Positions 12,265-31,408 of a DNA stretch of 33,880 nt are shown here, piece after piece; positions within the stretch are counted from its first letter, which is position 1; the number at the start of each line of letters is the position of its first letter. The DNA comes from Gemmatimonadota bacterium. GTDB taxonomy: Bacteria; Gemmatimonadota; Gemmatimonadetes; Longimicrobiales; Gaopeijiaceae. The notes under the pieces were generated by a model. It was not told the origin of the DNA and did not search any database. It saw nothing but the letters and a program-made list of their open reading frames with translations. The stretch spans positions 1 to 33,880 of the forward strand of contig SLBA01000056.1 of NCBI GenBank assembly GCA_007126575.1. Reading direction: 5' to 3'. The translations under genes were made by a program, and so were the position numbers.

Positions 12265-14508
12265 TCAGCGCTGGAAGGCGATTGCGGCACCCACGTACAG
12301 GCCCCGTCCCGGTCCGGGCTCGAAGAACCGGCCCTCGAAGGCGTTGGCGGTCACCGACGTGTTGTAGATCGCGTCGAAGAGGTTCGTCACCCCCGCGAAG
12401 GGGCTGAAGCGGAGCCCTGCGAACTCGACGTCGTTTCCACCCACCCGCACGTCGGAGAGCCAGTAGCCCGGGGACTCCGCTTCGGGGTCGTTGGCGTCGT
12501 TGCCCGGAATAGGGGCGCTGGTCTCTCCGCGAAACTCCACGAACCAGAGGCCCGGACCGATCCGGAGGATCCCTTCGAAGCGACGGGGGGAGAGGCCGGG
12601 CACCCGGTTGCCCGCATAGTCGACGCCGTCGACCTCGTAGTCGCGAAAACGGGCGTCGTTCGTCGACAGCACGAAGCGGGCGCTGATCATCGGGTCCGGG
12701 TTGAACTGAAGCGTGGCTTCCCACCCGTCGCGGCGTGAGCGCCCCGAGTTGCGGAAGTACCGGCGGTCGGTCTGGCCATCGATCTCGAAGGGCACGATCT
12801 CGTTGTAGAGCACCGTGTGGAAGTAGGTGAGCTCCCAGGCCGTCGAGTTTCCGACGAGGCCGCGCGCTCCCAGCTCCGATGTGATTCCGACCTGCGGCTC
12901 GAGTTCGAGGTTGAATCCGCCCAGGCCGTCCTCCCTGGTCGACATCTCCGAGGTGGTCGGGGTCTCGAAGGCCGTCGACAGGTTGACGTAGGCGCCGAAG
13001 GCCCGATGGAAGGCGGCGTGAAGCCCGAAGGAGGGCGAGGCGGAGTCGAGGGTCTGATAGCCCGAACCGTCCGGGCGGCCCGCGAGGCCTCCCAGTCGAT
13101 CGTCGGCGGAAAATCGGATCCGGTCGTAGCGAAGCCCGGTGAGCACATCGAGGATCGGGGCGATCGGGAGAAGCGCCTGCAGGAAGATCGCGCCCCCGAA
13201 GACGCGCTCGGACTGGTCCAGAAGGACGGGCCCGCGGACCCCCTCGTGGTTCTCGTGGGTGCGACGGTCGTCGAGCTGGAGGTCGGTCTCGAAGCCCATC
13301 GCCCACCAGAGGGGGCCCATCTCGGACATCGTGTCGGTGCGGATCATGGCCCGCACCCCCGCCGCCTGTCGGTCGAGATCGATGTAGTCTCCGGGGTTGG
13401 GGTTCGTCATGTCACGGCTGAGGCCGTATCCCGATAGCTCCAGCTCGCGGCCATTGATCGGGCCGACCCAGCGCGCCCCGAGCTGCCCCTGGCGCACCGA
13501 CTTTCCCGCCTGCTGCAGGACGTTGGCGGGGAAGGCCTGGCGGTCGCCCCGGATGATTGCGTTCGCCCCCAGCGAGCCCGGGTTCTCGGCGACCAGATCC
13601 ATCGCGTTCAGCGTCACCCGGGCCTCGCCGCCCCCTAGGGGGAAGTAGGTGTAGGCGTTCACCTGGTCGCGCAGGGTGGCCCCGTATGTCTGGTTCGCCG
13701 TGGCGTCGGGATGCAGCCGGTAGCCCCCCCACTCGTAGCGCGAGAAGTTCACGAGGTAGCCGGCCGACCCGATCCGTCCACTCGTGGTGCTCTGGTTCTG
13801 TCGGAGTCCGAAGTCCCCGTATACCGTTCGGAGCTGCTGGCGGAAGGGGGACTCCGGGGGTGGCTGCGAGCGGAAGTCGAGCACCCCGCCCGAGGCGTTT
13901 CCGTACAGGGCCGACCCCGGGCCGCGCAGCGCCTCGACCCGTCCCAGGCTGCCCAGGTCGAGGTGGTCGAGGTTGGACTGCCCGTCGGGGAGGGTGGCGG
14001 GGATGCCATCGACGAGGATTCGGATTCCCCGGACCCCGAACTGCGAGCGGGCGCCGAATCCACGGATCGAGATCCTCTCCCCCACGGCGTCGTTGAAGCG
14101 GTTCTGCACCTGGACTCCGGGAAGACCCTGCAGCGCCTCGTCGATCGAACTGTTGGAGCGGCCGCGCTGGAGGATCTCCTGGCCCAGGACCGAGACCGCG
14201 AACGGGGCCGACGAGATCTGGATGGGGCTGCGCAGGATCTGCACCACCACGCCCTCGAGGAGGATCGGGGAGCGGGGGTCTCCGGCACGCAGGGTCCCGA
14301 CAAGGGTGTCGGGCAGGCTGGGATCTCCCGGACGGATCGTGTCGGCGCCCAGGGTGTCGCGGATGATCGTGTCCGGAAGGGTAGCGAGCTGCGCCAGCGC
14401 CGGCGTGGCGACGACGGGCCCTCGATCGAGGAGGGGGCCGGTCAGAACCATGAGTAGGCCGACGGCGAGGGGCAGCAGCCGTCGGGCGGGATGATCCGTC
14501 AGGGGCAT
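12265..14508 (-). CDS. TonB-dependent outer-membrane receptor
   Basis: 747 aa from ATG 14508 (GTG 14520 is also possible; no ribosome-binding site distinguishes them). The signal peptide ends near residue 40 (PALA-Q). A ~45-residue linker is followed by the plug domain (about 85-200), with IDEALQGLPGVQV, GERISIRGFGARSQFGVRGI and VEALRGPGSALYGNASGGVLDF. The rest is a 22-strand barrel rich in alternating strands, including a C-terminal LRFSPFAGVTNLFDAIYNTSV segment. It takes up iron chelates, vitamins or other large nutrients at the outer membrane using TonB energy. The ligand cannot be assigned. It diverges from the aminopeptidase gene. Confidence 0.95.
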   Translation of the reverse strand: MPLTDHPARRLLPLAVGLLMVLTGPLLDRGPVVATPALAQLATLPDTIIRDTLGADTIRPGDPSLPDTLVGTLRAGDPRSPILLEGVVVQILRSPIQISSAPFAVSVLGQEILQRGRSNSSIDEALQGLPGVQVQNRFNDAVGERISIRGFGARSQFGVRGIRILVDGIPATLPDGQSNLDHLDLGSLGRVEALRGPGSALYGNASGGVLDFRSQPPPESPFRQQLRTVYGDFGLRQNQSTTSGRIGSAGYLVNFSRYEWGGYRLHPDATANQTYGATLRDQVNAYTYFPLGGGEARVTLNAMDLVAENPGSLGANAIIRGDRQAFPANVLQQAGKSVRQGQLGARWVGPINGRELELSGYGLSRDMTNPNPGDYIDLDRQAAGVRAMIRTDTMSEMGPLWWAMGFETDLQLDDRRTHENHEGVRGPVLLDQSERVFGGAIFLQALLPIAPILDVLTGLRYDRIRFSADDRLGGLAGRPDGSGYQTLDSASPSFGLHAAFHRAFGAYVNLSTAFETPTTSEMSTREDGLGGFNLELEPQVGITSELGARGLVGNSTAWELTYFHTVLYNEIVPFEIDGQTDRRYFRNSGRSRRDGWEATLQFNPDPMISARFVLSTNDARFRDYEVDGVDYAGNRVPGLSPRRFEGILRIGPGLWFVEFRGETSAPIPGNDANDPEAESPGYWLSDVRVGGNDVEFAGLRFSPFAGVTNLFDAIYNTSVTANAFEGRFFEPGPGRGLYVGAAIAFQR

Positions 14509-14645
14509 GGAGGGGTGCACGCGGGGTTGTGAGGAGGTCGAATGGGCAAGGTAGGGAGGACGGCAGTCGCTGTCGAGTCATCGCGGGTCCATCCTTCGTC
14601 GCTTACCTTGTGGGCGCCACCGATCCTCCGACCCAGCTCCGGCCC

Positions 14646-16255: not shown

Positions 16256-18976
16256 CTACGGGTTCAGCCAGTAGTTCAGCTTGACCATCAGGACGTTTTC
16301 GGGACGCGTGCTGAACAGGTCGCCGAAGCCGTCGCCGACCCCGACCGATCCGTCGACACCCTGGTGATCGCGGGCCTGTGACCAGACCACGAAGACCGTC
16401 GACCCCGGTCGGTACTCCCAGCGCAGCACGGCGTTCGAGCGGAACTGCGCGACGCTGAAGTCGGGGTTGCCCAGGGTTTCGGCCTGGCCGTCGCCCGTCA
16501 CGTCTCCGACCATTCGGCTCTGGGCGTCGCGCGAGGTCGCCACGGGGAGAACCCGATCCTCGTAGCGGTCGGCCCGGGGGTCTCCCAGGACCCGCAGCTC
16601 GGGGAAGTGGCCGCTCGAGTGGAAGGGCTGGCCGTAGAGCTGCAGCGAGAGGGTGGGCGAGAGCGCCAGGTCCAGGCGGGCCGTCACCCCCGTGGTCGAC
16701 TGCTCCAGCCGGCCGAACAGGTAGTGCGGGTCGTCGTCTCCTCCCATGCGACCGAGCCACTGCCGGTCCTCGACGCGCCGGTTGTGAAAGGGGCTCAGGC
16801 GGACGGTCGTACGTCCGGACGGACGCCACCGCACGTTGGTCGACACGTTCGCGTTCCACGAATCGCTTTCGGGCCGGACACCCCAGTTGATGTTCGTCCC
16901 GGCCTGCACCGCCCGGCGGCTGTCGCTGTTCACCCCCATCCAGCCGTTGGCGGCCCGCTCGGTGCGCAGCATCGGGCCTCCCCGCAGGAGGGTGGCGGAA
17001 AGGGACGACCCGTTCAGCCCCACGCCCCCGTAGGCATTCCAGTTGTTGTTCAGGGTCAGGTTGCCGTTCACATTCCCGGCCAGGTCGGAGTGCTCCCCCC
17101 CGGTGGTCCAGACCGACCAGAGATTCGTGTTCACTCCCCAGTTGCGCAGGCGTTCGCCCGGCTGCGTCTGCCGGTACCCCAGGAAGCCCGCCTGGGCCAC
17201 GTAGTCGGCTCCGGTCATGAACCCCAGGTCGTTGGCCTCGAAGCCCGGGGTGCGCAGCTGCGTGATGCCCCCGAAGACCCAGGGTCCGCCCCCGACCTTC
17301 ATGACCTCGAGCGAGCCCGAGGCCCCGGTCAGGCTCGTCCGGGTCTCGTCGAGGGTGACATGCTCGGCGTCGGGCCGCTGGAAGTAGCGGGCGGAGGATC
17401 GCTGCGTGCGCAGGATCGACTCCTCGGAGCCCGCTACATGGCTGCCCAGCAGGTATCCGCGGATCTCGATCGTGTTGGAGCGGACGCGGTGGCGAACATC
17501 GACCCCTCCGGTGAAGGCCCGATCCCGCAGCCCGAGCTCCTCGGCCGCGCCGGCGTCTCGCAACGCGGCGGTACCGATCACGCCGACCGCGCTCGAGCCC
17601 CCGCGAAAGTCGCGCTGGACCCGGGCCATCGAGTAGTTCGACAGCGGCTCGACCACCTGCGAGCCCCGGGTGCCGTCGGGGTGTGCGCTGCGGGCCTGCT
17701 CGCTCCCGGTGAGCGCGCTGAGCACCCCGACCGACCATCCGTCCTCGGTCTTTCCCGAGAGCTTTCCGGCCCCCAGGATCCGGGTCTGTCCTGGACGCTC
17801 GACCCAGGCCCCCTGGGGGGAATACGCACCCTGCGGCGAGCGACCGATCCTGCGCGAGTAGAAGAGGGTCTCGTTGCCCCCATCGCCATCCCCGATCCCG
17901 ATTCCGAAGCGGAAGATCCCGGCGCCCTCCAGAAAGAAGGGCCGCTGCTCGGGAAGGAAGGTCTCGAACGCCGTCAGGTTGACCCGGGCCGGATCGGCTT
18001 CGACCTGGCCGAAGTCGGGGTTCAGGGTCAGGTCCAGCGTCATGTTGTTGGTGATCCCGATCTTGAGGTCGGCCCCCGCCTCGATTCCGGTATCGGTGCG
18101 ACTGAAGAAGGGGTTGGCGGGGTCCCCCGGGGCGCGCGTCACGCGGCTGACGGTGTAGGGGAGCAGCTCGACCCGGCGGCCCCCGGCCAGCGCGGTCAGC
18201 CCCCGCAGCTCGCCGGAGCGCGAGACGATCGCCTGCTCCTGGGGCGAGAGGGGGGCCCACGTCGAAATCTCGCTCCTGCGGGCGATCTCGCGGGCGAAGT
18301 TCAGTCCCCACGTCTGCTCGGCCGCGCTCGAGAAGCGGAGCTGCGAGAGCGGGATTCGGAACTCCGCGGTCCAGCCCTCGTCATCGATCCGGGTGGCCAC
18401 GTCCCACACCGCGGTCCACCCCGTGTCCTCGGCGTTGTCGTTGTATCGGTACAGGTCCATCTTGACCCCGAGAGGGTTGACCGAGAACTGGAAGGCGGTG
18501 CGGCGGTCATGGTACGAATCGATGATCAGGTGCACCTGGTCGGAGTACGACCGCTCCCCCCGCCGCGTCAGCTGGGCCGCGATCAGCTCGGGATTGCGGT
18601 CCCACGCCCGGATCGCCACGTAGAGGGCCTCGTCGTCGTAGAGGATGCGCGCCTCGGTCTCTTCCGATGCGGGCTCCCCGGGCGAGGGCTCGAACTGCGT
18701 GAAGTTGCGCGCCACCGGTGCGTTGGCCCAGGCCGGATCGCTCAGGTCCCCATCGATGGTCGGAGCCGCACCCTGCACCCGGACCGCGGGAAGCGAGGGG
18801 ACCGAACCCGCGCGAATCGAATCCCGTTGGCCGTTGTCAACCGGGCGATCCTGGCCATGCAGGGGCAGGGTGAGCAGCATCATGGCCACGGTCAGGACGA
18901 GGGCATGGCCGCACAGCCAGGCTGCGGAGCTCGAAGGTGCGGCGTCGGGGGCCTGCGTGTCGGATCGGATCATCAT
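16256..18976 (-). CDS. DUF5916 outer-membrane protein with CBM9-like N-terminus
   Basis: 906 aa. A signal peptide (about 20-42, ending LPLHGQ) precedes a family-9 carbohydrate-binding-like beta-sandwich (about 73-235, TIDGDLSDPAWANAPVARNF and DDEALYVAIRAWD). The long DUF5916 region follows (about 245-906) with its conserved DLTLNPDFGQVEADPARVNLTAFETFLPEQRPFFLEG segment and barrel-like strands to the C-terminal KLNYWL. The family is common in Bacteroidota, Gemmatimonadota and other FCB bacteria and is usually linked to surface polymer handling. Its exact activity is unproven. GAGAGG (18984-18979) precedes two adjacent ATGs, 18976 and 18973; the second has better spacing. A 6-bp-arm palindrome lies at 18993-19007 just upstream. 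Confidence 0.92.
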   Translation of the reverse strand: MMIRSDTQAPDAAPSSSAAWLCGHALVLTVAMMLLTLPLHGQDRPVDNGQRDSIRAGSVPSLPAVRVQGAAPTIDGDLSDPAWANAPVARNFTQFEPSPGEPASEETEARILYDDEALYVAIRAWDRNPELIAAQLTRRGERSYSDQVHLIIDSYHDRRTAFQFSVNPLGVKMDLYRYNDNAEDTGWTAVWDVATRIDDEGWTAEFRIPLSQLRFSSAAEQTWGLNFAREIARRSEISTWAPLSPQEQAIVSRSGELRGLTALAGGRRVELLPYTVSRVTRAPGDPANPFFSRTDTGIEAGADLKIGITNNMTLDLTLNPDFGQVEADPARVNLTAFETFLPEQRPFFLEGAGIFRFGIGIGDGDGGNETLFYSRRIGRSPQGAYSPQGAWVERPGQTRILGAGKLSGKTEDGWSVGVLSALTGSEQARSAHPDGTRGSQVVEPLSNYSMARVQRDFRGGSSAVGVIGTAALRDAGAAEELGLRDRAFTGGVDVRHRVRSNTIEIRGYLLGSHVAGSEESILRTQRSSARYFQRPDAEHVTLDETRTSLTGASGSLEVMKVGGGPWVFGGITQLRTPGFEANDLGFMTGADYVAQAGFLGYRQTQPGERLRNWGVNTNLWSVWTTGGEHSDLAGNVNGNLTLNNNWNAYGGVGLNGSSLSATLLRGGPMLRTERAANGWMGVNSDSRRAVQAGTNINWGVRPESDSWNANVSTNVRWRPSGRTTVRLSPFHNRRVEDRQWLGRMGGDDDPHYLFGRLEQSTTGVTARLDLALSPTLSLQLYGQPFHSSGHFPELRVLGDPRADRYEDRVLPVATSRDAQSRMVGDVTGDGQAETLGNPDFSVAQFRSNAVLRWEYRPGSTVFVVWSQARDHQGVDGSVGVGDGFGDLFSTRPENVLMVKLNYWLNP

Positions 18977-19007: not shown

Positions 19008-19180
19008 GTCGGATATGTCGAACCCTACGAGGCTGGGCACGGATCGGTTTCAGCCCCAGCCAGCCTGCCTTCATGAGACGTCACAAGGCCGAAAAGGGTT
19101 TGCACGAAGAGATCACGGACCCACGGGGAAACCGAAACGCAGGCGAAACGCAGGCGCAACGCAGTCGAAAGGGAGTCGCA

Positions 19181-20092
19181 ATGGAGTCACCGACGATTGG
19201 CAGGGAGGCCTTTCGGGGCCATGGACTGGGCAACGACTATCTGGTCTTCGAGGCCCCCGAACCGGAGGCGCACGGGGCGGGACTCCTCCTCACCCCGGCG
19301 AACGTCCGGGCGATCTGTCACCGGACGCGCGGACTCGGCTCCGACGGGATCGTCGTGCTCCTCGACCGCGATCCGGATGACGGCGTCTTTCCGCTCAGGA
19401 TGTTCAATCCGGACGGATCGGAGTTCGAGCGGAGCGGGAACGGACTCCGGATCCTGGGTGCCTGCCTGCACCGGATGGGGCGCGTCGCCAAGGGGGACAC
19501 CTTCAGGGTGCGCAGCGGGGGCTCCGAGATCGCGATGACTCTTCACGCGGTCTCGGAGCTCGGGATCCTCGACCTGTCGGTCGAGATGGGCAGGGCCCGC
19601 ACCGGGTTCGAGGCGCTCGGGCTGGACACGGGGGCGCTCGACGAGGCCCACCGGGCCGATCATCCGGAGTTGGGCCCCCTCGACTTCCACCCGGTGTCGG
19701 TGGGCAACCCGCACGCCGTCCTCTTCACCCCGGACCTGTCCGATGCCCACCGTGAAGCGGTCGGCGCCTTCCTGGCCGTGCACCCCGCCTTCCCCGAGGG
19801 GACGAACGTGCAGCTCGCCCACGTCGAGGATTCCGGTCAGCTTCGGATCGCGATCTGGGAGCGGGGGGTGGGCGCCACCGAGGCCTCGGGGACCAGCTCG
19901 TGTGCCGCCGCGGTCGCCGCGGTGGACACGGGGAAGCTGCCCGCGGGCCGTATCGAGGTCACGATGGAGGGGGGGCTGCTCGCGGTCGACGTCACCGCGG
20001 AGCTCGAGGTGACGCTGCGTGGCCCGGTACAGGAGGTGGGCAGGGTCGAGCTCGCCGACACCTTCGTGCGCTGGATGGCACAGGCCGGGTAG
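19181..20092 (+). CDS. dapF: Diaminopimelate epimerase family protein with Ser for both catalytic Cys
   Basis: 303 aa from ATG 19181 (GAAAGGGAG 8-10 nt upstream). It has the full two-lobed DapF layout: GHGLGNDYLVF (13-23), RGLGSDGIVVL (50-60), FNPDGSEFERSGNGLR (75-90), VSVGNPHAV (172-180), GTNVQL (207-212), WERGVGATEASGTSSCAA (226-243). Substrate-contacting Asn18, Asn76, Asn176, Asn209 and Glu227-Arg228 are kept. The catalytic pair is changed: CGNG becomes SGNG (Ser85) and ACGTG becomes ASGTS (Ser236), both nine residues from their landmark Asn76 and Glu227, so alignment is unambiguous. Classical DapF converts LL- to meso-diaminopimelate for lysine and cell-wall synthesis using two Cys. This may be an alternative isomerase or a Ser-variant DapF subgroup. 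Confidence 0.85.
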   Translation: MESPTIGREAFRGHGLGNDYLVFEAPEPEAHGAGLLLTPANVRAICHRTRGLGSDGIVVLLDRDPDDGVFPLRMFNPDGSEFERSGNGLRILGACLHRMGRVAKGDTFRVRSGGSEIAMTLHAVSELGILDLSVEMGRARTGFEALGLDTGALDEAHRADHPELGPLDFHPVSVGNPHAVLFTPDLSDAHREAVGAFLAVHPAFPEGTNVQLAHVEDSGQLRIAIWERGVGATEASGTSSCAAAVAAVDTGKLPAGRIEVTMEGGLLAVDVTAELEVTLRGPVQEVGRVELADTFVRWMAQAG

Positions 20093-20115: not shown

Positions 20116-21201
20116 TCAGGTACGCACGCGCATCGTGAGGATGAGACCTGCGGCCAGGAAGAGCCCGTTGGGTAGCCAGGCGGCCACCATCGGGTCGATT
20201 GCCCCGGCGTAGCCCGCCGCCCCGAAGACGCGAAAGAGCACCAGGTAGAGGATCGTGGTGCCCAGCGAGACCCCGATCCCGAAGGCCGCGCCCCCTCGTT
20301 TCGACGAGGTGGCGAGGGGAGCCCCGAACAGGATGATCACCATCGTCGCGATCGGAATCGCCAGGCGCTGCTCGCGTTTGACCTCGATTCGACCCACGTC
20401 GCCCCCTGATCGACTCACCCGCTCCGAGAGCGCGGCCAGCTCGGCCCGGGTCATCTCGTCTTCGTCGAGCACGGTCTGCACGATCTGGCCGGGATCCTCC
20501 TGCAGCGATTCCCAGGCGAGCGTCTCGAAGCGCTCGAGCGTTTCGGAGCCGTCGGAGTGGAGCTCCCGCCGGTAGCCGTCTCGGAAGACCCAGTGGGGCG
20601 CGGTGTCGCCCTCCTCGTTCCATACGCCCTGCTGCGCGGTGATGTGGAGGGCCGGCTCGCCGTTCTCGCCCTCCTCGCGAACCAGGACCACCCCCTGCAT
20701 CTGCCCATCGGCCACCCGCAGCGAACGGGCCATCAGGGACTCTCCGCTGTCGGTCAGATACACGAACTGGCTGCGCCACCCCTGCCGGCGCTCTCGATCC
20801 TCGCGCAGCTCGGCCGAGGCCTGGTTGGCGCGGGGAACGATCTCGGCGATCGCGAGCCCCGCCCCGGTGAACAGGAGCCCCAGCACGTAGAGGGGCACCG
20901 TGAGCCGGTGGAAGGAGATGCCTCCGGCCTTGGCCGCCATGACCTCCCGGTGGACCGTCATCGGCTGGATCGTGAAGACCGTGGCCAGCAGTGCGGCGAT
21001 CGGCAGCGACCAGAAGACGAACTGAGGGTACTGGTAGGCGTACGAAAGGAGCACCTGTCCCAGGGGGAGCCCGCGGTCCAGGTATCGATCCAGGTTCTCG
21101 GTCGCGTCGCCCAGGATGAACAGAAGGGGAGCGCCGAGCACGAACAGGAGAAAGAGCTTCAGAAAGGTGCGGGCCACCAGTCGGTCGAGGATGCGGATCA
21201 T
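20116..21201 (-). CDS. lptG: LptF/LptG-family LPS export permease (second of pair)
   Basis: 361 aa from ATG 21201, which overlaps the upstream gene's stop in ATGA (21198-21201); the open frame extends further upstream but inside the neighbouring gene. It has three N-terminal membrane helices (about 12-30, 55-75, 98-118), a central periplasmic beta-jellyroll domain, and three C-terminal helices (about 275-355). AAKAGGISFHRL is the cytoplasmic coupling helix typical of YjgP/YjgQ proteins. With LptF, LptB and LptC it extracts lipopolysaccharide from the inner membrane and passes it to the periplasmic bridge. F and G assignments are by gene order only. This pair supports an LPS-bearing outer membrane. 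Confidence 0.9.
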   Translation of the reverse strand: MIRILDRLVARTFLKLFLLFVLGAPLLFILGDATENLDRYLDRGLPLGQVLLSYAYQYPQFVFWSLPIAALLATVFTIQPMTVHREVMAAKAGGISFHRLTVPLYVLGLLFTGAGLAIAEIVPRANQASAELREDRERRQGWRSQFVYLTDSGESLMARSLRVADGQMQGVVLVREEGENGEPALHITAQQGVWNEEGDTAPHWVFRDGYRRELHSDGSETLERFETLAWESLQEDPGQIVQTVLDEDEMTRAELAALSERVSRSGGDVGRIEVKREQRLAIPIATMVIILFGAPLATSSKRGGAAFGIGVSLGTTILYLVLFRVFGAAGYAGAIDPMVAAWLPNGLFLAAGLILTMRVRT

Positions 21202-22634
21202 CGGCCGCCCCCGACCGCCGGGCCCGGGGCGGACTCCACCGCCCCCCGGCGATTCAGCGGATCCCGGAGCCAGCCTCGCACCCCGTCGAAGGCCCCGCTC
21301 CGGTTCGAGGTCCCCTGACGCCCCATTCGCCAGGCCATCCAGAGTCCCGGTGTGAAGAGGATCAGGTTCGGCAGCCACATGGCGATCACGGGGTTCAGGT
21401 GCCCCCGCACGGCCAGCCGCTCCCCGCCGATCAGCCCGACCCAGTATAGAAAGAAGATGCCCGCCGACATCGCGATCACCATCCCCACCCCTCCCTGGGG
21501 GAATCGCGCGGCGAAGGGGCCCCCCAGAAGGATGAAGATCAGGCAGGCGAAGGCGATCGCGTACTTCTTGTGGATCTCGACCTGAAAACGGTAGATCGAG
21601 AGGGCGTGGACGTTCCAGCGATTCTCGGTGATCTGAAGGGTGCTGCGCGTTTCGGCGATCTCGCCGTCCTGCACCATGCCACCCGGTTCGACGACGGCGG
21701 GAGAGAGGAGTTCGGTCTCCTCGCCGTCATCGCTGTGGTCGAGCCCGAGCGCCGTCTCGACGGTCCGCCGCGAGATCTGCCGGCTCTCTTCGCCGAGGCT
21801 CCTGAGGTTCGCCATCCCCTCGGCGACGCGCTCCTCGAGCATCGGGATCGTCAGTTCGCGTGCCCCGCGGCCGCCCCCGGCAGTCCGACGCTCGAGCTCC
21901 GTGCCCACCCCGCGAAAGGGGATCACCTGACGCTCGAAGTCCATCCGCTGAAAGCCCCCGGGGCGTTCCTCGGTGGTCTCGAAGACGGTGCCGTCCGCGA
22001 GGAGGACGTAGAGGTCCATCCGGTCCTCGGTGAAGGCCATCTCTCCGTGGTCGGCGACGATCACCCGGTTGTCTCCGGGGCGGCTCATGTCGTAGATCGT
22101 CACATCGACCATGGTGTTCGAGGCCTGGTCGATGGAGCGGGCTTTCAGGAAGTAGCGGGTATTGTCACCGGTGTGGACCTCGTTGATCACCTGCTCGCGC
22201 AGTTCGAGCGTCGGGCTCTTGCTTCCGACGTCACTCATGAGGGAACTTAGGCGATGGTTGGACTCGGGGAGCACCTGGGCGTTGAAGTAGAACATCATGA
22301 CCGTCAGCCCGACCCCGATCACGAGCATGGGGGCGAGAAGACGGGTGGGTCGGATCCCGCCCGCGGCCATGGCGGTGATCTCGTTTTGAGCCGTCATCTC
22401 GGAAAAGGTGTAGAGGACCGCCACGAGCACGGCCATCGGAAAGGTGAGGGCCACGATATGGGGGAGCGACAGGAGCATGAACTCCCCGAAGACCTCGGGG
22501 CCCAGGCCCTTGCCGACGAGGTCGCTGAGCCGCTGCGCCACGGCATTCAGGAAGAGAAGCCCGGTGACCGCGATGAATGCGAAGAGGAAGGGCCCGATGT
22601 GGGCCTTGATCACGTAGCGGGTGAGAATCGTCAT
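21198..22634 (-). CDS. lptF: LptF/LptG-family LPS export permease (first of pair)
   Basis: 478 aa from ATG 22634; the open frame upstream contains only Pro/Arg-rich sequence not expected in the family. Membrane helices (about 14-35, 55-75, 100-122) open the protein with the motif SEMTAQNEITAMAAGGIRPTRLL, the coupling helix. The periplasmic domain is enlarged (about 125-375, against ~150-180 residues in E. coli LptF) by a charged helical insertion around 260-340. Three more helices close the fold (AIAFACLIFILLGGPFA onward). A ~45-residue basic Gly/Pro-rich tail follows. It is the first gene of the leftward lptF-lptG pair and diverges from sprA. Confidence 0.9.
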   Translation of the reverse strand: MTILTRYVIKAHIGPFLFAFIAVTGLLFLNAVAQRLSDLVGKGLGPEVFGEFMLLSLPHIVALTFPMAVLVAVLYTFSEMTAQNEITAMAAGGIRPTRLLAPMLVIGVGLTVMMFYFNAQVLPESNHRLSSLMSDVGSKSPTLELREQVINEVHTGDNTRYFLKARSIDQASNTMVDVTIYDMSRPGDNRVIVADHGEMAFTEDRMDLYVLLADGTVFETTEERPGGFQRMDFERQVIPFRGVGTELERRTAGGGRGARELTIPMLEERVAEGMANLRSLGEESRQISRRTVETALGLDHSDDGEETELLSPAVVEPGGMVQDGEIAETRSTLQITENRWNVHALSIYRFQVEIHKKYAIAFACLIFILLGGPFAARFPQGGVGMVIAMSAGIFFLYWVGLIGGERLAVRGHLNPVIAMWLPNLILFTPGLWMAWRMGRQGTSNRSGAFDGVRGWLRDPLNRRGAVESAPGPAVGGGR

Positions 22635-22680
22635 GCCATCGGGGTTCGGTCGATTCGGGTCGGTGCGGGCCGGTTGATTC

Positions 22681-22699
22681 GTACGCGTTCGTTGCGTAC
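22681..22699. promoter_or_regulatory. Palindrome in the lptF/sprA divergent region
   Basis: GTACGC (22681-22686) and GCGTAC (22694-22699) are perfect 6-bp arms around 7 nt, in the 165-bp gap between the divergent lptF and sprA starts. Such a site could bind a dimeric regulator of both units. No promoter hexamers are convincing nearby. Confidence 0.3.
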
Positions 22700-22799
22700 C
22701 TGCGGGGCGGAGCGACACACTCACTTCTCAAGCCGAAATCATACCCGGAACGCCTGACACGGGTCCTTCGAGTCCTTCAGCCCTGGAGCCGGACCGAGC

Positions 22800-25700
22800 A
22801 TGCGAGCTCTGAAGCCCTTCCTCGCCGCCATTCTGGCGGGCGTCGCCCTGTCGGGGTGGGCGACCGAGGTTCGGGCTCAGGGGGCACCGGAGCGGGGGGT
22901 TGAGCGGGCGGCGTCCAGCGCGGACACGCTCCCGGGCGTCGATACGCTCCGGCTCGTGGACTCCCTGCTCGCGACGCCCCTCTTCGCCGCTCGCGACACC
23001 CTGCCCGCGCCCAGTCGGATCTCGCCTCTCGAGGATCTGGCGATCCGCCTGAGGGGGCGAGGGGAGTTCGGGGGCGACTGGAGCCGCTTCCGACCCTGCG
23101 ACGCCTCGTTCCAGCTCACCTGCAACCCGGGGCTGATCCCCCAGCTCCAGCCCGACTTCCAGTTCAGCCTCGAGGTCGGGGGCTCGGTGGCGGACCGCTT
23201 CTTCCTCGATGTGGACTACGACCAGACCCGCGAGTTCGGGGGTGCCAACCGATTCCAGGCATACTACGAAGGGCAGGAGGGGGAGACGATCCAGCGGGTT
23301 GAGCTGGGCGACATCACCTTCGCGCTCCCCGACACCCGCTTCCTGACGCGCGGAATCCCGGCCGGCAACTTCGGGCTCCTGGCGAGCGGCGAGGCGGGGG
23401 GCATGACCTTCCAGTCGGTGGTCGCACAGCAGCAGGGGAGTCGACAGCGTCGCGAGTTCCGGCTGGGACGGGGCGACGAGGGAGTGATCCGCGAGGACAC
23501 CCTGGTCGTCGATGACGCCGAGTACGTGCGGGGACAGTTCTTCTTCATCCTCGACCCCCGCGAGTTCAGCGACTATCCGCACCTCGACATCCTGGGGCTG
23601 CGGCCGGGCGACGCGCCCTCGCGGCTCGCTCCGGGGCCGGCCCCGATTCAGCTCTGGCGCATGGAGCGTGAGCCGGTCGTGCGACAGCAGGTCCAGGGCT
23701 ACATCCGGGCCGACGCCGAGCTGGGGGGAGTCAGCGAGCCCCTCGTGCGTGAGTCCGGCTGGTTCCGGCATCTGCGCCCCGGCACGGACTACTACGTGCA
23801 CCCCTCGGGCCTCTGGGTCGCGCTGCGCGTCCCCCTGGGTCCGAACGAGGCGCTCGGGGTCACCTACATCACCATGCAGGGCGACACGATCGGCGACTAC
23901 AACCCCGAGCGGATCCAGAACGAGGGGGGCGTTCCCCGGCTCGGGCTCCTGCGGCCCACCGAGTCGCGGCACCAGCCCGACCGTGCGGGATGGGAGCTCG
24001 AGATGCGGCAGATCTACCGGCTTTCGGGCTCCGACGAGGTCGATCTCGAGACCCTCGACCTGTCGATCTCGCTGGGCGAGGAGAGCGCCGGCCGCACCTT
24101 CGTGAACCGGCCCGGTGCCGAGCGCCTCTCCCTCCTCCGACTCTTCGGGCTCGACGAGTCCGCGCCCTTCGAGGGAGTCGACCGCAGCGCGCTCTTCCAG
24201 CCCGCTTCGCAGACCTTCGGCGAGACCGGGCTGAGCGGGACCTTCCTGGTCTTTCCCACCCTGCGCCCCTTCCTGGAGCCGCCCCCGGTTCCGTCGGAGG
24301 GGCTCTCGGCCGATCAGACCCGCGCGCTTCTCGGGGAGGACGGGAATCGGCGCATCTACCGCTCCGCGGATCCCTTCGAGCGGCGGTCCGGAGGGCTCTA
24401 TCGGCTGAACGTCGAGCTCAGCTCCCAGAGCTCCGGGGTCGCCTCGACCTTCTCGCTCGGGGCCTTCGGGATCCGCGAGGGGAGCGAGCGGCTGTACCTG
24501 GGCGATCGGCTCCTGCGCCCGGGCACCGACTACCTGCTCGACCCCGAGATCGGGGTCGTGACCCTGCTCCAGCCCGAATTCCTCCTGGCCCGCAGCTCCT
24601 CCGACCGGCTCCAGATCAGCTGGGAGCAGCTGAGCCTCTTTCGCCCACGCCCCACCACCCTCGTCGGGGGGAGCGCCGCGGTACCCGTGGCCGAGGCGGG
24701 CGAGCTGACCTTCCTGGGTCTCTACCAGGCCGAGCGCGAGATCCTGAACCGACCCCGCTTCGGGTCCGAACCCGTCGCCGCGGGAATGGTCGGGGTCGGG
24801 ACCCAGCTCGAGTGGGGCCTGCCGGGGGTCGAGACCTTTCTGGCCCGCTACCTGGGCGGCGATCCCGAGGCGTCCGGGGCCGAGGCGAGCCTCCGGGTCG
24901 AGGGGGAGTTCGCCGTGTCGCTTCCCAACCCCAACGTGTCGGGCGCCGCGTACCTCGACGACTTCGACTCCGGCGACGAACGCACCGTCTCGCTCCTTTC
25001 GACCGGATGGCACCTGGGGAGTCGGCCCGCGGACCGGACGGGAGCCACGCAACGCCTCCCCGAGACGCTCGATGTGCCGTCGGCCACCTCGCTCGTCTGG
25101 CAGCACACCTGGGTCGAGACGAGTCCGCTGGGAGACTCGACCGGGGTCTTCGAAGGGCTCTTCCCCCGCTCCGACATCGACCAGGAGATCAATGTCGCCG
25201 GAAGCCAGACGCGGGAGCCCGGACTTCATCTCACCTTCGGAGGGCCTCCCGGAACCAGCTTCGAGGACCCGCGATGGCGCTCGATCACCACCCTGATCTC
25301 GAGTACGGGAGCCGACCTGACGCAGACGGAGTTCCTGGATTTCTACGTGGCCGACGGGGATTCGGCGACGCTGATCCTCGACCTGGGGATGGTGAGCGAG
25401 GACGCGTACTTCATCGACGCCGGGGGACGGACCACGGGGATCCATCCCGAGACGGGGCGCCCGTGGGGGCAGGGGGTGCTCGACCAGGAGGCCGACCCGC
25501 TGCGCGGCGAGATCTGGAACCGGGAGCTGGACCGGATCGGGATGTGGCCCGAGGAGTGCCTGGGGGAGCCCGGGCGGGTCTATCCGAGGGGAGACCCCAC
25601 CGCAAACTGCCTGCGGGGCAACGGGCGGCGCGACACCGAGGACCTGAACGGGAACGGGGTGCTCGACACCGAGGAGCGCTACGCCCGGTACGTGGTGCGT

Positions 25701-28700
25701 CTGGATGGAAGCTCGCCGTATCTCGTTCGGGATCGGGCGCAGACGGGCACGGGCTTTCGCCTGTATCGGATTCCCCTGCGCGGCCCCCAGACCGTCTACC
25801 CTTCGGGAGAGCTCACTCAGGCCGACTGGCGGTCGGTCCAGTTCCTGCGCATGACGGTGACCGGCACCCGCTCGTCGCGCATGACCCTGGCGCGCATGCG
25901 GCTCGTGGGTTCGCGCTGGGTGAAGCGGAGCGTCGATGGGATCCTGCGCGGGGTCGGAGGCGACACCCTGGCGATCGGGGGAAGCTTCGAGGTCACGCCC
26001 GTGGGGGTGCTCACCGAGGGGTCCGCGTACCAGGCGCCTCCCGGGGTGCTCGAGCGGCTCGACGATCCGACTTCGGCGGTGGCCGGACGGGGGGTCGAGT
26101 TCTCGGAGCGCTCGCTCGCCCTGCGCTTCGAGGATCTGGGGGTCGGGGATCGCGTCGAGGTCTATTCGCGCTTTCTCCAGCGGCCGCGGGACTTCCTCTC
26201 CTACGGGCACCTTCGGCTCTGGACCGCGACCCGGCGGGGGGACTGGACGGGGGGGGACCCGCCCGACGTCTTCCTGAAGGTGGGCAGCGATCCCGAGAAT
26301 TTCTATCTGTGGAGGTCTCCCCTGGCGCCCGAACGGGATCCGGGGGGCGTCACCCCCGAGGACTGGGTGCCCGAAGCGATCATCGACTTCGACACCTGGA
26401 TCACGTTGAGGCGGCGGGCCGAGGAGCGGCTCATCCGTGAGGGCGGGCTGGTTCGGGAGGGGCCGATCGTGGAGTGGAATGCCGACTCGACGCACGCGGT
26501 GGTGCTCAGGGACCGGGCACGGGCGCCGAACCTGGCGGCGGTGCGCGAGATCTCGCTCGGGGTGTGGAATCGGACGGGCGCGCCGGTGCGCGGAGAGGCG
26601 TGGGTGAACGAGCTGCGGCTGGGTGGGGGCGTCCGGACGGCGGGGACGGCACGCTACCTGACCATGGAGTTCGACGGGGGGGATCTCCTCCAGGCGCGAA
26701 TCGGCTACGAGGGGACCTCGCCCTGGTTCCAGAACATGGAGACGCGCCCCGACTACCGGGAAGAAAACGCCCTGAACCTGTCGGGGTCGGTCCAGCTCGG
26801 GGGGGCGCTGCCCGAGGAATGGGCGGTCGACCTGCCGCTGACGGTGTCGCATCATCGGTCGGGCTCGGACCCGCTCTTCCTGCAGGGGACCGATCTGGAG
26901 GCCGGGCGGCTTCTGGGGCTGCGCACGGGGGCGGCGCGTGATACCCGGGCGTCGCTCACCCTGCGGACCGACGCCACCACCGGGCTTGCGACCCTCGATC
27001 GGGCGCTGGCGGGCCTCGAGGGCCGGCTTGGCCTGAGCCGATCGTACGGGCGGACGCTGAGCTCCGAGTCGCAGTCGACCGGGGTCGAGACGGGGGTGGC
27101 CTTCCAGCTGCGGCCCCTGCCGCGCAGGACCGACGTGGTGCCCGAGTTCCTTGAGCCGCTGGTGCGGATCCTGTTGCCCCCGGGGCTTGCGCGACGGCTG
27201 AACGATGCCGAATTCCAGTGGAGCCCCGAGGAGCTGAGGGTGGGCAGCACCCTGCGTCGGAGATCCTTCGAGGTCACCCGCTTCGAGCAGATCATCGACC
27301 AGGGGACGCTGGACCCCGGCTCGCGGGCCCGGGCTCCCGAGTCGTGGCTCGACACGCGGGCGCGGGTCGCCTTCCGGCCGGGGGGAACGATGACGGCCTC
27401 GATGGAACTCAACTCCGAGCGGGACCTCCTCGATCCCGAAACGGGGGTGCTCGACCCCCGGGTGCGTCCCCTGGTCGAAGCGGTGCGGCGCGAGATCGCG
27501 GGGATCGGGCTGGGGTGGGAGACCCGGCGGAGCCTGCTGGTGCGGGCGGGAGCGCGGCCCGAGATCCTGCCCGGGGTGGTGACCGATCTGAGCGTGCTGA
27601 ACCGCTACGGGACCGACCGGAACGCCCGCCTGGTGCGGCTCGGGATGATCACCGACGAGGGGGGCATGCCGGGGACCGGGCTCGAGGGATCGGGGATCGA
27701 GGGGATCTCGGTCGCGGCGGGCGCGGTGGGGGACTCCGCCCTCCTGCGCAACGTCCGGGTGGAGAGGGAGCTTCGGGGAGCCGTCACGATGGACCCGGCC
27801 CGGGTCGTGCCCGTCGAGGCGCTCGACGTGGTGATCTCGCGCCTGAGCCCGCTGAACCTGACCCTGCAGAGCGGGCTCGTCTCGGGGTACTTCCGCGAGG
27901 ACGTGGATCCGGGGCTGGGGCTGCAGCTGGGGTTCGGGCGGGCGGGGAGCTTTCGCGAGATCGACGAGGTCCGGGCGTCGACCCTGGTGGATCGTCGCTC
28001 GGTGGGGGCGGGGACCGGGGTGCGGCTCCCGTCGGCCTTTTTCATCAACCTGAACCTGCAGGACACCCGGATCCGGGCCCTCGACCAGCGCTCGGAGCGC
28101 GAGGCCCGGACTCGCAGCTGGCCCGACCTGCGGGTCGGCTCCTCGGATGTGCCGGTCCCGGGGGCGTGGGATGGGGTGCTCGAGCGCGTCTCCTTCACCT
28201 CGGGGCTGCAGAGGGTGCGCGAGAGGGTGGACTTCGGAGAGGGCCTGCAGGAGCGGGAGCGCACCGATGTGCGGATCCCGGCCGAGATCACCCTCCAGTG
28301 GGCCGGCGGGTTGACCGCACGGCTGCGGGGGACGGTGGTCGAGGGGGACGGCCGCGATCCGACAGGTGCGACGGAGCGATCGAACCGCGAGGCGGGTGTC
28401 TCGATCGAGACGCGACTGCGTCCCCGGGGGGGCCTCGAGGCGCGCTTCGATGCCCCCTTCCGACTCTCGATCGTGGGGCAGTATTCGTCGCAGGACGAGT
28501 GCCGGACGCCGTCGGGGCAGGAGGAGTGCGTGCCCTTCCTGGACCAGGTCAACCGGAGCCTCGGGCTCAGCATGGACACCATGGTCTCAGGCTTCGAGGT
28601 GGGGGGGCAGGCGTCGCTGATCGATCGGCGCTCCTTCACCGGCTTCGAGAGCGGGTACACCCAGCTGCAGCTCGGGATCTGGGGGCGGATGGAGTTCAGC

Positions 28701-28754
28701 GCGGGGCCGGTGGGGCGGCTGGACCGGGGGGATCCGGACCCCTTCGGGGGCTGA
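22800..28754 (+). CDS. sprA: SprA-like giant outer-membrane protein (type IX secretion translocon family)
   Basis: 1984 aa with a signal peptide (cleavage after about residue 26, VRA-Q). Two SprA-N-type modules are marked by GTDYYVHPSGLWVAL (from 328) and GTDYLLDPEIGVVTLLQPEFL (from 575). Next are the landmark AAYLDDFDSGDE (716-727) and a Ca-binding-loop-like DLNGNGVLDTEE (948-959) within TEDLNGNGVLDTEERY, which resembles SprA sequences. The rest is strand-rich and ends in a barrel-like segment. In Bacteroidota, SprA (~2400 aa) is the 36-strand outer-membrane channel of the type IX secretion system and gliding machinery. This protein is shorter by about 400 residues. I find six cysteines in three close pairs (100/108, 920/937, 1901/1910). 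Neighbours are LptF/G and ComEA/pilus genes; no porV, gldK-N or T9SS-sorting C-terminus is in the window. Confidence 0.88.
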   Translation: MRALKPFLAAILAGVALSGWATEVRAQGAPERGVERAASSADTLPGVDTLRLVDSLLATPLFAARDTLPAPSRISPLEDLAIRLRGRGEFGGDWSRFRPCDASFQLTCNPGLIPQLQPDFQFSLEVGGSVADRFFLDVDYDQTREFGGANRFQAYYEGQEGETIQRVELGDITFALPDTRFLTRGIPAGNFGLLASGEAGGMTFQSVVAQQQGSRQRREFRLGRGDEGVIREDTLVVDDAEYVRGQFFFILDPREFSDYPHLDILGLRPGDAPSRLAPGPAPIQLWRMEREPVVRQQVQGYIRADAELGGVSEPLVRESGWFRHLRPGTDYYVHPSGLWVALRVPLGPNEALGVTYITMQGDTIGDYNPERIQNEGGVPRLGLLRPTESRHQPDRAGWELEMRQIYRLSGSDEVDLETLDLSISLGEESAGRTFVNRPGAERLSLLRLFGLDESAPFEGVDRSALFQPASQTFGETGLSGTFLVFPTLRPFLEPPPVPSEGLSADQTRALLGEDGNRRIYRSADPFERRSGGLYRLNVELSSQSSGVASTFSLGAFGIREGSERLYLGDRLLRPGTDYLLDPEIGVVTLLQPEFLLARSSSDRLQISWEQLSLFRPRPTTLVGGSAAVPVAEAGELTFLGLYQAEREILNRPRFGSEPVAAGMVGVGTQLEWGLPGVETFLARYLGGDPEASGAEASLRVEGEFAVSLPNPNVSGAAYLDDFDSGDERTVSLLSTGWHLGSRPADRTGATQRLPETLDVPSATSLVWQHTWVETSPLGDSTGVFEGLFPRSDIDQEINVAGSQTREPGLHLTFGGPPGTSFEDPRWRSITTLISSTGADLTQTEFLDFYVADGDSATLILDLGMVSEDAYFIDAGGRTTGIHPETGRPWGQGVLDQEADPLRGEIWNRELDRIGMWPEECLGEPGRVYPRGDPTANCLRGNGRRDTEDLNGNGVLDTEERYARYVVRLDGSSPYLVRDRAQTGTGFRLYRIPLRGPQTVYPSGELTQADWRSVQFLRMTVTGTRSSRMTLARMRLVGSRWVKRSVDGILRGVGGDTLAIGGSFEVTPVGVLTEGSAYQAPPGVLERLDDPTSAVAGRGVEFSERSLALRFEDLGVGDRVEVYSRFLQRPRDFLSYGHLRLWTATRRGDWTGGDPPDVFLKVGSDPENFYLWRSPLAPERDPGGVTPEDWVPEAIIDFDTWITLRRRAEERLIREGGLVREGPIVEWNADSTHAVVLRDRARAPNLAAVREISLGVWNRTGAPVRGEAWVNELRLGGGVRTAGTARYLTMEFDGGDLLQARIGYEGTSPWFQNMETRPDYREENALNLSGSVQLGGALPEEWAVDLPLTVSHHRSGSDPLFLQGTDLEAGRLLGLRTGAARDTRASLTLRTDATTGLATLDRALAGLEGRLGLSRSYGRTLSSESQSTGVETGVAFQLRPLPRRTDVVPEFLEPLVRILLPPGLARRLNDAEFQWSPEELRVGSTLRRRSFEVTRFEQIIDQGTLDPGSRARAPESWLDTRARVAFRPGGTMTASMELNSERDLLDPETGVLDPRVRPLVEAVRREIAGIGLGWETRRSLLVRAGARPEILPGVVTDLSVLNRYGTDRNARLVRLGMITDEGGMPGTGLEGSGIEGISVAAGAVGDSALLRNVRVERELRGAVTMDPARVVPVEALDVVISRLSPLNLTLQSGLVSGYFREDVDPGLGLQLGFGRAGSFREIDEVRASTLVDRRSVGAGTGVRLPSAFFINLNLQDTRIRALDQRSEREARTRSWPDLRVGSSDVPVPGAWDGVLERVSFTSGLQRVRERVDFGEGLQERERTDVRIPAEITLQWAGGLTARLRGTVVEGDGRDPTGATERSNREAGVSIETRLRPRGGLEARFDAPFRLSIVGQYSSQDECRTPSGQEECVPFLDQVNRSLGLSMDTMVSGFEVGGQASLIDRRSFTGFESGYTQLQLGIWGRMEFSAGPVGRLDRGDPDPFGG

Positions 28755-29515: not shown

Positions 29516-29557
29516 GCTCGGGGCCCGGCCGTGGTGAGCCTGCCTTGCAAAGCTTGC

Positions 29558-29587
29558 TTGACCCCGCACGAGGCCGGGGCCTACTTT
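29558..29587 (+). promoter_or_regulatory. Possible sigma-70-type promoter of pilB-pilT-pilC
   Basis: TTGACC (29558-29563) and TACTTT (29582-29587) are separated by 18 bp in an AT-richer pocket about 100 bp upstream of pilB. The -35 match is good and the -10 is partial. It would start the pil operon independently of comEA. Confidence 0.35.
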
Positions 29588-29689
29588 CACGGTAGACTGC
29601 GTGGACGCCCACACCCCGCATTTTCAAGTGCGCGCCCGTGGATGCCCGTAGCCCTTCGCCACCTCCGAATCAGGACTCAACGCTTCCCC

Positions 29690-31408
29690 ATGAGCACACG
29701 GCTCGCCCAGGACCGCCTCGGAGACCTGTTGCTTCGCGAGGGTCTCATCTCCCAGGAGCAGCTGCAGAAGGCCCTTTCCGAGGCCCGGACGGGGGGGACC
29801 CGTCTGGGTTCGGCACTCGTGAAGCTCGGCTTCCTCGGAGAGGAGGAGCTCACGCGGATGCTCGCCCGATACTACCGGGTGCCTGCAGTGGACCTCAACC
29901 GGGTCGAGGTGGACCCGAAGATCATTCGCCTGGTCCCGGGTGAGGTCGCGCTCAAGCACCTGGTGCTCCCCCTTCGCCGCGTCGGACGCACGCTCACGGT
30001 GGCGATGGTCAACCCGACCGACCTGGGGGCGATCGACGACCTGAAGTTCGTGACCCGCTTCGAGATCGACCCGGTGGTGGTCGGCGAGGTCACCCTTCGC
30101 CAGCACCTCGAGCAGTACTACGACGGCACCGAAGACCGGATGACCGAGATCCTCTCGGATCTGTTCGACGAAGCCGACGTCGAGGTGGTCGAGGATGACG
30201 AGGAGGAGGTCTCGGTCGCGGCGCTCCGTGAGCAGGTCGACGCGGCGCCGGTCGTCCGCTTCATCAACGGGCTGTTGACCGACGCCGTCAACAAGGGGGT
30301 CTCCGACATCCACATCGAGCCCTTCGAAAAGGAGATCCGGGTGCGCTACCGGATCGACGGGGCGCTGCAGGAGGTCATGAAACCACCGTACAAGATGAAG
30401 GCCGCATTGACCTCCCGGATCAAGATTCTGGCCGACCTGAACATCGCCGAGCGCCGGGTCCCCCAGGACGGACGGATCAAGCTGCGGATGCGCAAGAAGG
30501 TCGTGGACTTCCGCGTGTCGACGCTGCCCGTGATCTTCGGCGAAAAGATCGTGCTGCGGATCCTGGACAAGGGGAACCTCACCTTCGATCTCCTGAAGTT
30601 CGGCTTCGAGCCCAAGGCCGAAAAGGACTTCATGGAGGCGATCGCCCAGCCCTACGGAATGGTTCTGGTGACCGGGCCGACGGGGTCCGGCAAGACGACG
30701 ACGCTCTACTCGGCCCTTTCGAAGATCAACACCGAAGAGGTCAACATCATGACGGCCGAGGATCCGGTGGAGTACAACCTGCACGGGATCAACCAGGTCC
30801 TGGTGCGCACCGAGATCGGCATGTCGTTCGCGAACGCCCTGCGCGCCTTCCTGCGGCAGGACCCGAACATCATCATGGTCGGTGAGATCCGGGACCTCGA
30901 GACGGGCGGGATCTCGATCAAGGCGGCGCTGACGGGCCACCTGGTCCTTTCTACGCTGCATACCAATGATGCCCCCTCGACGGTGACGCGTCTGATCGAC
31001 ATGGGGCTGGAGCCCTTCAACGTGGCCTCGGCGCTGACCCTCGTCACCGCACAGCGGCTGGTCCGACGAATCTGCACCGACTGCAAGGCCGAGACGACGT
31101 ATCCCGAGGCGTACCTCGAGGCGGCCCGGATCCCCCGGGACTTCGCGAAGGGGACGACCTTCTACAAGGGGAAGGGCTGCGATCGCTGCAGCGGCTCGGG
31201 TTATCGTGGCCGTCAGGGCCTCTATGAAGTGATGGCGATCGGCTCCCGGCTGCGGAAGCTGATCATGGCCGAGGCGGGGACCGATGCCCTGCGTGAGACC
31301 GCGATCGAAGAGGGCATGCTGACATTGAGGATGGATGGCCTCAAGAAGGTCTCGGCGGGAATCACGACGCTCGAAGAGGTCATCAAGGAGACGGCCGAGG
31401 TCCAATGA
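29690..31408 (+). CDS. pilB: Type IV pilus assembly ATPase PilB
   Basis: 572 aa from ATG 29690; in-frame ATG 29642 would add a basic leader not typical of the family. The N-terminal MshEN/T2SSE-N domain (LGDLLLREGLISQEQLQKAL onward) binds nucleotides such as c-di-GMP in many PilB proteins. The motor domain has Walker A GPTGSGKTT starting at 329, the Asp box region, Walker B IIMVGEIRD (394-402) and the His box TGHLVLSTLHTND. The zinc tetracysteine is present (Cys462, Cys465, Cys497, Cys500). It drives pilin polymerisation at the inner-membrane platform PilC. It is the first gene of a pilB-pilT-pilC run with gaps of 39 and 46 bp. Confidence 0.96.
   Translation: MSTRLAQDRLGDLLLREGLISQEQLQKALSEARTGGTRLGSALVKLGFLGEEELTRMLARYYRVPAVDLNRVEVDPKIIRLVPGEVALKHLVLPLRRVGRTLTVAMVNPTDLGAIDDLKFVTRFEIDPVVVGEVTLRQHLEQYYDGTEDRMTEILSDLFDEADVEVVEDDEEEVSVAALREQVDAAPVVRFINGLLTDAVNKGVSDIHIEPFEKEIRVRYRIDGALQEVMKPPYKMKAALTSRIKILADLNIAERRVPQDGRIKLRMRKKVVDFRVSTLPVIFGEKIVLRILDKGNLTFDLLKFGFEPKAEKDFMEAIAQPYGMVLVTGPTGSGKTTTLYSALSKINTEEVNIMTAEDPVEYNLHGINQVLVRTEIGMSFANALRAFLRQDPNIIMVGEIRDLETGGISIKAALTGHLVLSTLHTNDAPSTVTRLIDMGLEPFNVASALTLVTAQRLVRRICTDCKAETTYPEAYLEAARIPRDFAKGTTFYKGKGCDRCSGSGYRGRQGLYEVMAIGSRLRKLIMAEAGTDALRETAIEEGMLTLRMDGLKKVSAGITTLEEVIKETAEVQ

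Follow-up and report, generated by a model that had tools for sequence, protein, structure and literature searches.

Diaminopimelate (DAP) epimerase, DapF, acts in cell-wall and lysine biosynthesis and is a textbook example of an enzyme in which two cysteines deprotonate a very weak carbon acid. Serine is a far poorer base than a thiolate, and Cys-to-Ser exchange is the usual crippling change. The dapF homologue of a Gemmatimonadota bacterium (contig SLBA01000056.1) encodes serine at both catalytic sites, which raises the question of whether its product can still produce meso-DAP. The gene was analysed in the context of a 33,880-nt stretch of the contig, referred to as the window, whose features are listed in Table 1.

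Table 1. Positions of the features in the window, with the evidence used to assign them.
Feature	Position	Strand	Basis
TonB-dependent receptor, PqqU-like but well under the cut-off	12265..14520	-	295 of 1200 bits
DUF5916/CBM9 protein, divergent, upstream of dapF	16256..18976	-	domain match; homologue in 25/80 loci
Short imperfect repeats ACGCAGGCG and ACGCAGTCG, immediately 5' of the ribosome-binding site	19136..19167		sequence
Likely ribosome-binding site AAAGGGAG, 5 bases 5' of the ATG	19168..19175	+	deduced from the sequence
dapF homologue, Ser/Ser catalytic pair, 303 aa	19181..20092	+	PF01678, TIGR00652, AlphaFold2, Z 31.8 vs Anabaena DapF 9mro
Arg84; Lys/Arg in 173/178 clade I, 0/60 clade II and 0/117 Cys/Cys rows	19430..19432	+	alignment
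Ser85 (AGC), site of the first catalytic Cys (SGNG), directly before helix 86-98	19433..19435	+	sequence, AlphaFold2
Ser236 (TCG), site of the second catalytic Cys (ASGTS), directly before helix 237-249	19886..19888	+	sequence, AlphaFold2
Ser239; Ser in 177/178 clade I, 0/60 clade II and 0/117 Cys/Cys rows (Gly in Cys/Cys)	19895..19897	+	alignment
lptG-like permease, convergent with dapF	20116..21378	-	PF03739; homologue near dapF in 59/80 loci
lptF-like permease	21198..22724	-	PF03739; homologue near dapF in 59/80 loci
1984-aa frame with SprA_N domain, adjoining secretion or pilus genes	22800..28754	+	domain match
T2SSE ATPase (secretion/pilus)	29531..31408		
T2SSE ATPase (secretion/pilus)	31448..32557		
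T2SSF protein (secretion/pilus)	32604..33803		

The open reading frame starts with ATG at 19181 and ends with a TAG stop codon (20090-20092). Its product scored 182 bits against the curated DapF model TIGR00652, above the cut-off of 114.65. PF01678 was matched twice, as two halves (121.5 bits), and was the only family recovered in a Pfam scan (E up to 0.001), with no match to the proline-racemase family model. A sequence-only reading of this DNA had proposed that serines replace both catalytic cysteines of DapF, each nine residues from a conserved partner, and that the substrate-binding residues are kept. All of this was borne out, including the positions: Ser85 follows Asn76 and Ser236 follows Glu227 at that spacing, and ten DAP-contact positions are retained. 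The inhibitor contacts of Anabaena DapF given in an excerpt of PMC12039745 (Asn13, Asn66, Gly76, Asn77, Asn164, Asn197, Glu215, Arg216, Gly225 and Thr226) align to N18, N76, G86, N87, N176, N209, E227, R228, G237 and T238. Across 178 rows of clade I (see below), conservation at each of these positions is 97-100%, counting T or S at 238. Since it carries Ser85 and Ser236 where classical DapF has its two catalytic cysteines, the protein was classed as a Ser/Ser variant and not as a classical DapF.

The AlphaFold2 model of the protein (pLDDT 95.1, pTM 0.91) has the DapF fold, matching Anabaena DapF (9mro) with an rmsd of 2.7 over 268 residues. Most DapF entries gave Z-scores of 28-32, with two at 25.7. 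The top VIA-align row was O-ureidoserine racemase (Z 32.7), with which the DapF rows at 31-32 were tied; the likeness to histidine/O-ureidoserine racemase is one of structural similarity alone.

DapF sequences were obtained from named genome records, from relatives of the window and its phylum, and from Chloroflexota, Acidobacteriota and the class of genome G423 (filed as Deltaproteobacteria). Copies of the window (L001, L002) and loci retrieved for other genes were excluded before counting, and merging identical rows brought 376 down to 358, after which the window was added. The resulting 359 aligned rows, in which near-copies remain and the window is counted twice (as query row and as L003), comprised 239 Ser/Ser, 117 Cys/Cys and three Cys/Ser pairs, from a non-random sample in which L008-L087 had been gathered via similarity to the window protein. 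Within the window's order, families f1, f2 and f3 were Ser/Ser throughout (12, 9 and 15 rows), as were seven of seven extra genes (L430, L431, L434-L438; L419-L438 lie outside the 359 rows). All 66 rows from named Gemmatimonadota, a set gathered by similarity to the window protein, were likewise Ser/Ser. The other Gemmatimonadota families (f4, f5, f7-f11) were Cys/Cys in 43 of 43 rows. Ser/Ser and Cys/Cys rows numbered 55 and 5 in the G423 class, 12 and 36 in Chloroflexota (plus one Cys/Ser), and 62 and 25 in Acidobacteriota (plus two Cys/Ser). As judged from this alignment, the serine pair is a mark of the window's own Gemmatimonadota order, much of Acidobacteriota, some Chloroflexota and one "Deltaproteobacteria" class. 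A sequencing or assembly error at the serine sites was ruled out by the hundreds of Ser/Ser relatives; both serines are present in the nearest relative (L008, 93% identical) and in all DapF sequences read for the window's order.

Several rows deviated at neighbouring positions. Among the Chloroflexota Ser/Ser proteins, L344-L346, L348, L350 and L351 have an altered Asp-Gly (NPDA, NPDQ, NPDR or NPDS), and L350 and L351 read SGSG in place of SGNG. The Cys/Cys rows L135-L159 (Gemmatimonadota f4 and f5) read CGNA or CGNG and then have Leu or a similar residue at the usual Arg90; over all Cys/Cys rows, position 90 is Arg in 74% and Leu in 23%. Three loci from records titled as Gammaproteobacteria MAG (L023, L030, L031) carry a Gemmatimonadota-type DapF, about 52% identical to that of the window, and are probably mislabelled or mis-binned.

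In a tree of 142 representatives built with the motif columns removed, the catalytic pair had to change six times, compared with a mean of 48.8 after shuffling. Most Ser/Ser rows fell into two groups. Clade I (Gemmatimonadota, the G423 class, Chloroflexota and a few Acidobacteriota) was Ser/Ser in 46 of 46 representatives (SH-aLRT 100), and clade II was a set of 30 Acidobacteriota representatives within which L418, a Cys/Cys row on a long branch, also fell. A careful 59-row tree, from which four long-branch rows had been removed beforehand, agreed with this topology and placed L355 (Chloroflexota) apart. Because of L355, a single origin of all Ser/Ser proteins was rejected in a clade test whose group had been picked after viewing a tree (p-AU 0.028); by this one test, the pair arose at least two times. 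A possible common origin of clades I and II had a tree support of 45/49. For residue counts, groups I, II and CC were chosen by catalytic pair and source, with L330, L373 and L375 placed in group I by hand and with L355 and the three Cys/Ser rows outside. All three mixed rows were Cys85/Ser236, with no case of the reverse pairing, which hints that position 236 changes before position 85. Both sites use AGY as well as TCN serine codons in clade I, and each of the four possible pairings occurs (123, 20, 18 and 17 of 178 rows). These families are more than one base step apart, so serine has been kept through codon-family switches, and serine itself seems to be under selection in clade I. Comparison of the window gene with L008 gave a dN of 0.038, a dS of 0.293 and a dN/dS of 0.13.

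The sequence-only reading had suggested looking for a second, Cys/Cys dapF and for a DapL or dehydrogenase route. The window's genome, assembled into 205 contigs (3.68 Mb, completeness 96.5%), had one DapF locus, with no second copy found, and no DAP dehydrogenase match above the cut-off. None of 146 genomes of the order had a dehydrogenase above the cut-off either, ten of them giving weak partial matches (up to 27.5 bits), and a bypass of DapF by this enzyme was rejected. The DapL check proved ill-aimed, since DapL makes LL-DAP and leaves the DapF step in place; among these routes only DAP dehydrogenase would bypass DapF, and the logic of the pathway therefore ruled out DapL as a bypass. There is a DapL-like aminotransferase, truncated by a contig end, that scored below the cut-offs (406/593 and 417/507 bits). 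On the demand side, the genome encodes an aspartokinase/DAP decarboxylase (LysA) fusion (1089 bits, cut-off 802), which requires meso-DAP, and a MurE with the motif TSDNPR. The DNPR motif of MurE has been tied to D,L-DAP, which was inferred for a Gemmatimonadetes MurE (excerpt of PMC9434261).

Of 15 genomes searched for MurE, 13 had a match above the cut-off (G027 had none), and 13 of 14 inspected MurE loci carried DNPR: 11 from the order, that of G423 and a partial one in G425. The exception was the locus of Caldilineales G424. LysA was matched in 16 of 17 genomes, in 11 of them above the cut-off; the Ser/Ser genomes without a clear LysA were G016 (no match), G426 (110 bits) and G430 (104 bits). 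A DapF match was obtained in 374 of 395 genomes of the phylum. Among the listed genomes of the window's order, five had no DapF match and five had two, which in G011 and G022 represent one gene each, split by the search. In the Acidobacteriota genomes G710, G721 and G751, a divergent Cys DapF-like gene is found beside the Ser/Ser copy, which reads SGDG in G721 and G751. Judged from these matches, a Ser/Ser DapF is usually the only copy in its genome. Divergent Acidobacteriota DapF-like proteins (L419-L429, L432), containing for example FCSNGS and CCGTGC motifs, were in some genomes the sole DapF-like copy found. A search of plasmids returned only matches below 60% identity, and literature searches on DAP in Gemmatimonadetes, Longimicrobium and Acidobacteria brought up no usable record of cell-wall composition for a Ser/Ser species.

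We consider it likely that the product of the window gene is a functioning DAP epimerase, in which Ser85 and Ser236 would serve as the two acid/base residues for the conversion of LL-DAP to meso-DAP. The observations behind this reading are the two serines, the kept DAP contacts, the predicted fold, a genome in which no second DapF and no DAP dehydrogenase was matched, and the presence of meso-DAP-consuming enzymes. Of the two possibilities raised by the sequence-only reading, a Ser/Ser epimerase subgroup and some other function, genome context favours the first, and a large subgroup of this kind does exist. Since Ser/Ser DapF is widespread in large bacterial groups and usually the only copy, it is probably functional and works with serine. 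The serine hydroxyls, each predicted to lie at the N-terminal end of one of two facing helices, would carry out the proton transfers. Lys/Arg84 and Ser239 might activate the clade I serines or keep them in place, a guess from their co-occurrence. As general requirements of the Ser/Ser form they were rejected, since both are missing from clade II. Further marks of clade I are Tyr20 and Ile/Val91. The functional Ser/Cys-paired 4-hydroxyproline 2-epimerase shows, by analogy, that one serine can serve (excerpt of PMC4113996). Counted against a working epimerase were the weaker basicity of serine, the greatly reduced turnover of Cys-to-Ser mutants of HisR (excerpt of PMC11602996), the LysA and MurE gaps and the extra Cys copies in three Acidobacteriota genomes.

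Of the alternatives, the best-surviving one, itself improbable, is a DAP epimerase in which other residues or bound water transfer the protons and the serines are merely structural. Two cysteines could be invoked: Cys241 occurs in 91% of clade I and 67% of clade II rows, against 32% of Cys/Cys rows, and Cys46 reaches 100% in clade I and 97% in clade II, but the latter is also found in 80% of Cys/Cys rows. A replacement active-site cysteine was rejected, as no Cys column was near-invariant in Ser/Ser rows yet missing from Cys/Cys rows. Across the alignment columns, the two serines were the only newly near-invariant residues common to both Ser/Ser clades, and neither was lost in any clade I tree representative.

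Marginally less probable is an enzyme that has switched to a different substrate or reaction (as a racemase of another amino acid, an isomerase or a dehydratase), with meso-DAP obtained otherwise. The fold family is functionally diverse, with O-ureidoserine racemase as the top structural match, and a Ser/Thr relative is a dehydratase (excerpt of PMC4113996). Against this stand the retention of every DAP-contact position, the genome without another DapF or DAP dehydrogenase match, and the adjoining genes: going by gene order in 80 named loci, the lptG/lptF surroundings are a stable chromosomal setting and give no sign of a new pathway. That the protein is a relic with very little or no activity, meso-DAP being made by an unrecognised epimerase or not at all, is highly unlikely: the crippled HisR mutants are in its favour, but the low dN/dS, the serine pair held across a multi-phylum clade and the meso-DAP-consuming LysA fusion and MurE of the same genome speak against it.

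Returning to serine-based epimerisation, we regard as somewhat better than an even bet the broader proposal of a thiol-free class of cofactor-independent epimerases, in which two serines would move the alpha-carbon proton. This class would be the sole source of meso-DAP in most members seen and would span several phyla, with at least two origins; the Cys85/Ser236 rows are possibly half-way forms. If true, a natural and widespread two-serine form that is the only copy would mean that the thiol is not required, and it would provide a ready system for asking what compensates for the lost thiols. Cysteine-based annotation or inhibitor design would then miss whole lineages, and the active site would be resistant to oxidation and thiol-directed inhibitors.

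With classical DapF (TIGR00652; Anabaena 9mro, H. influenzae 1gqz), the window protein shares the fold, the two-domain layout, the DAP contacts and the location of the catalytic sites at helix N-termini; it differs by serine at both of these sites, to which clade I adds Lys/Arg84, Ser239, Ile/Val91 and Tyr20. The aspartate/glutamate racemase EcL-DER belongs to a fold family other than that of DapF. It is cofactor-independent like the window protein and has a natural alcohol side chain, with one Cys replaced by Thr, but the change affects a single position and turnover is irreversible and one-way (excerpt of PMC8142540). In the proline racemase superfamily, the Ser/Cys 4-hydroxyproline 2-epimerase and the Ser/Thr 3-hydroxyproline dehydratase share a natural catalytic Ser for Cys and the same kind of fold, but have one Ser and other substrates; the available part of the same source lists no Ser/Ser epimerase (PMC4113996). 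No description of a natural Ser/Ser DapF was found in the portions of the open-licence PubMed Central literature on DapF and the proline racemase superfamily that were covered. In DapF crystals, Cys-to-Ser exchange serves to hinder catalysis (excerpt of PMC12039745). The engineered variants C73S and C217S (2q9h, 2q9j) have a catalytic-site serine and the fold in common with the window protein, but their serines are single and man-made, whereas the two serines of the window protein are natural and appear to be kept by selection.
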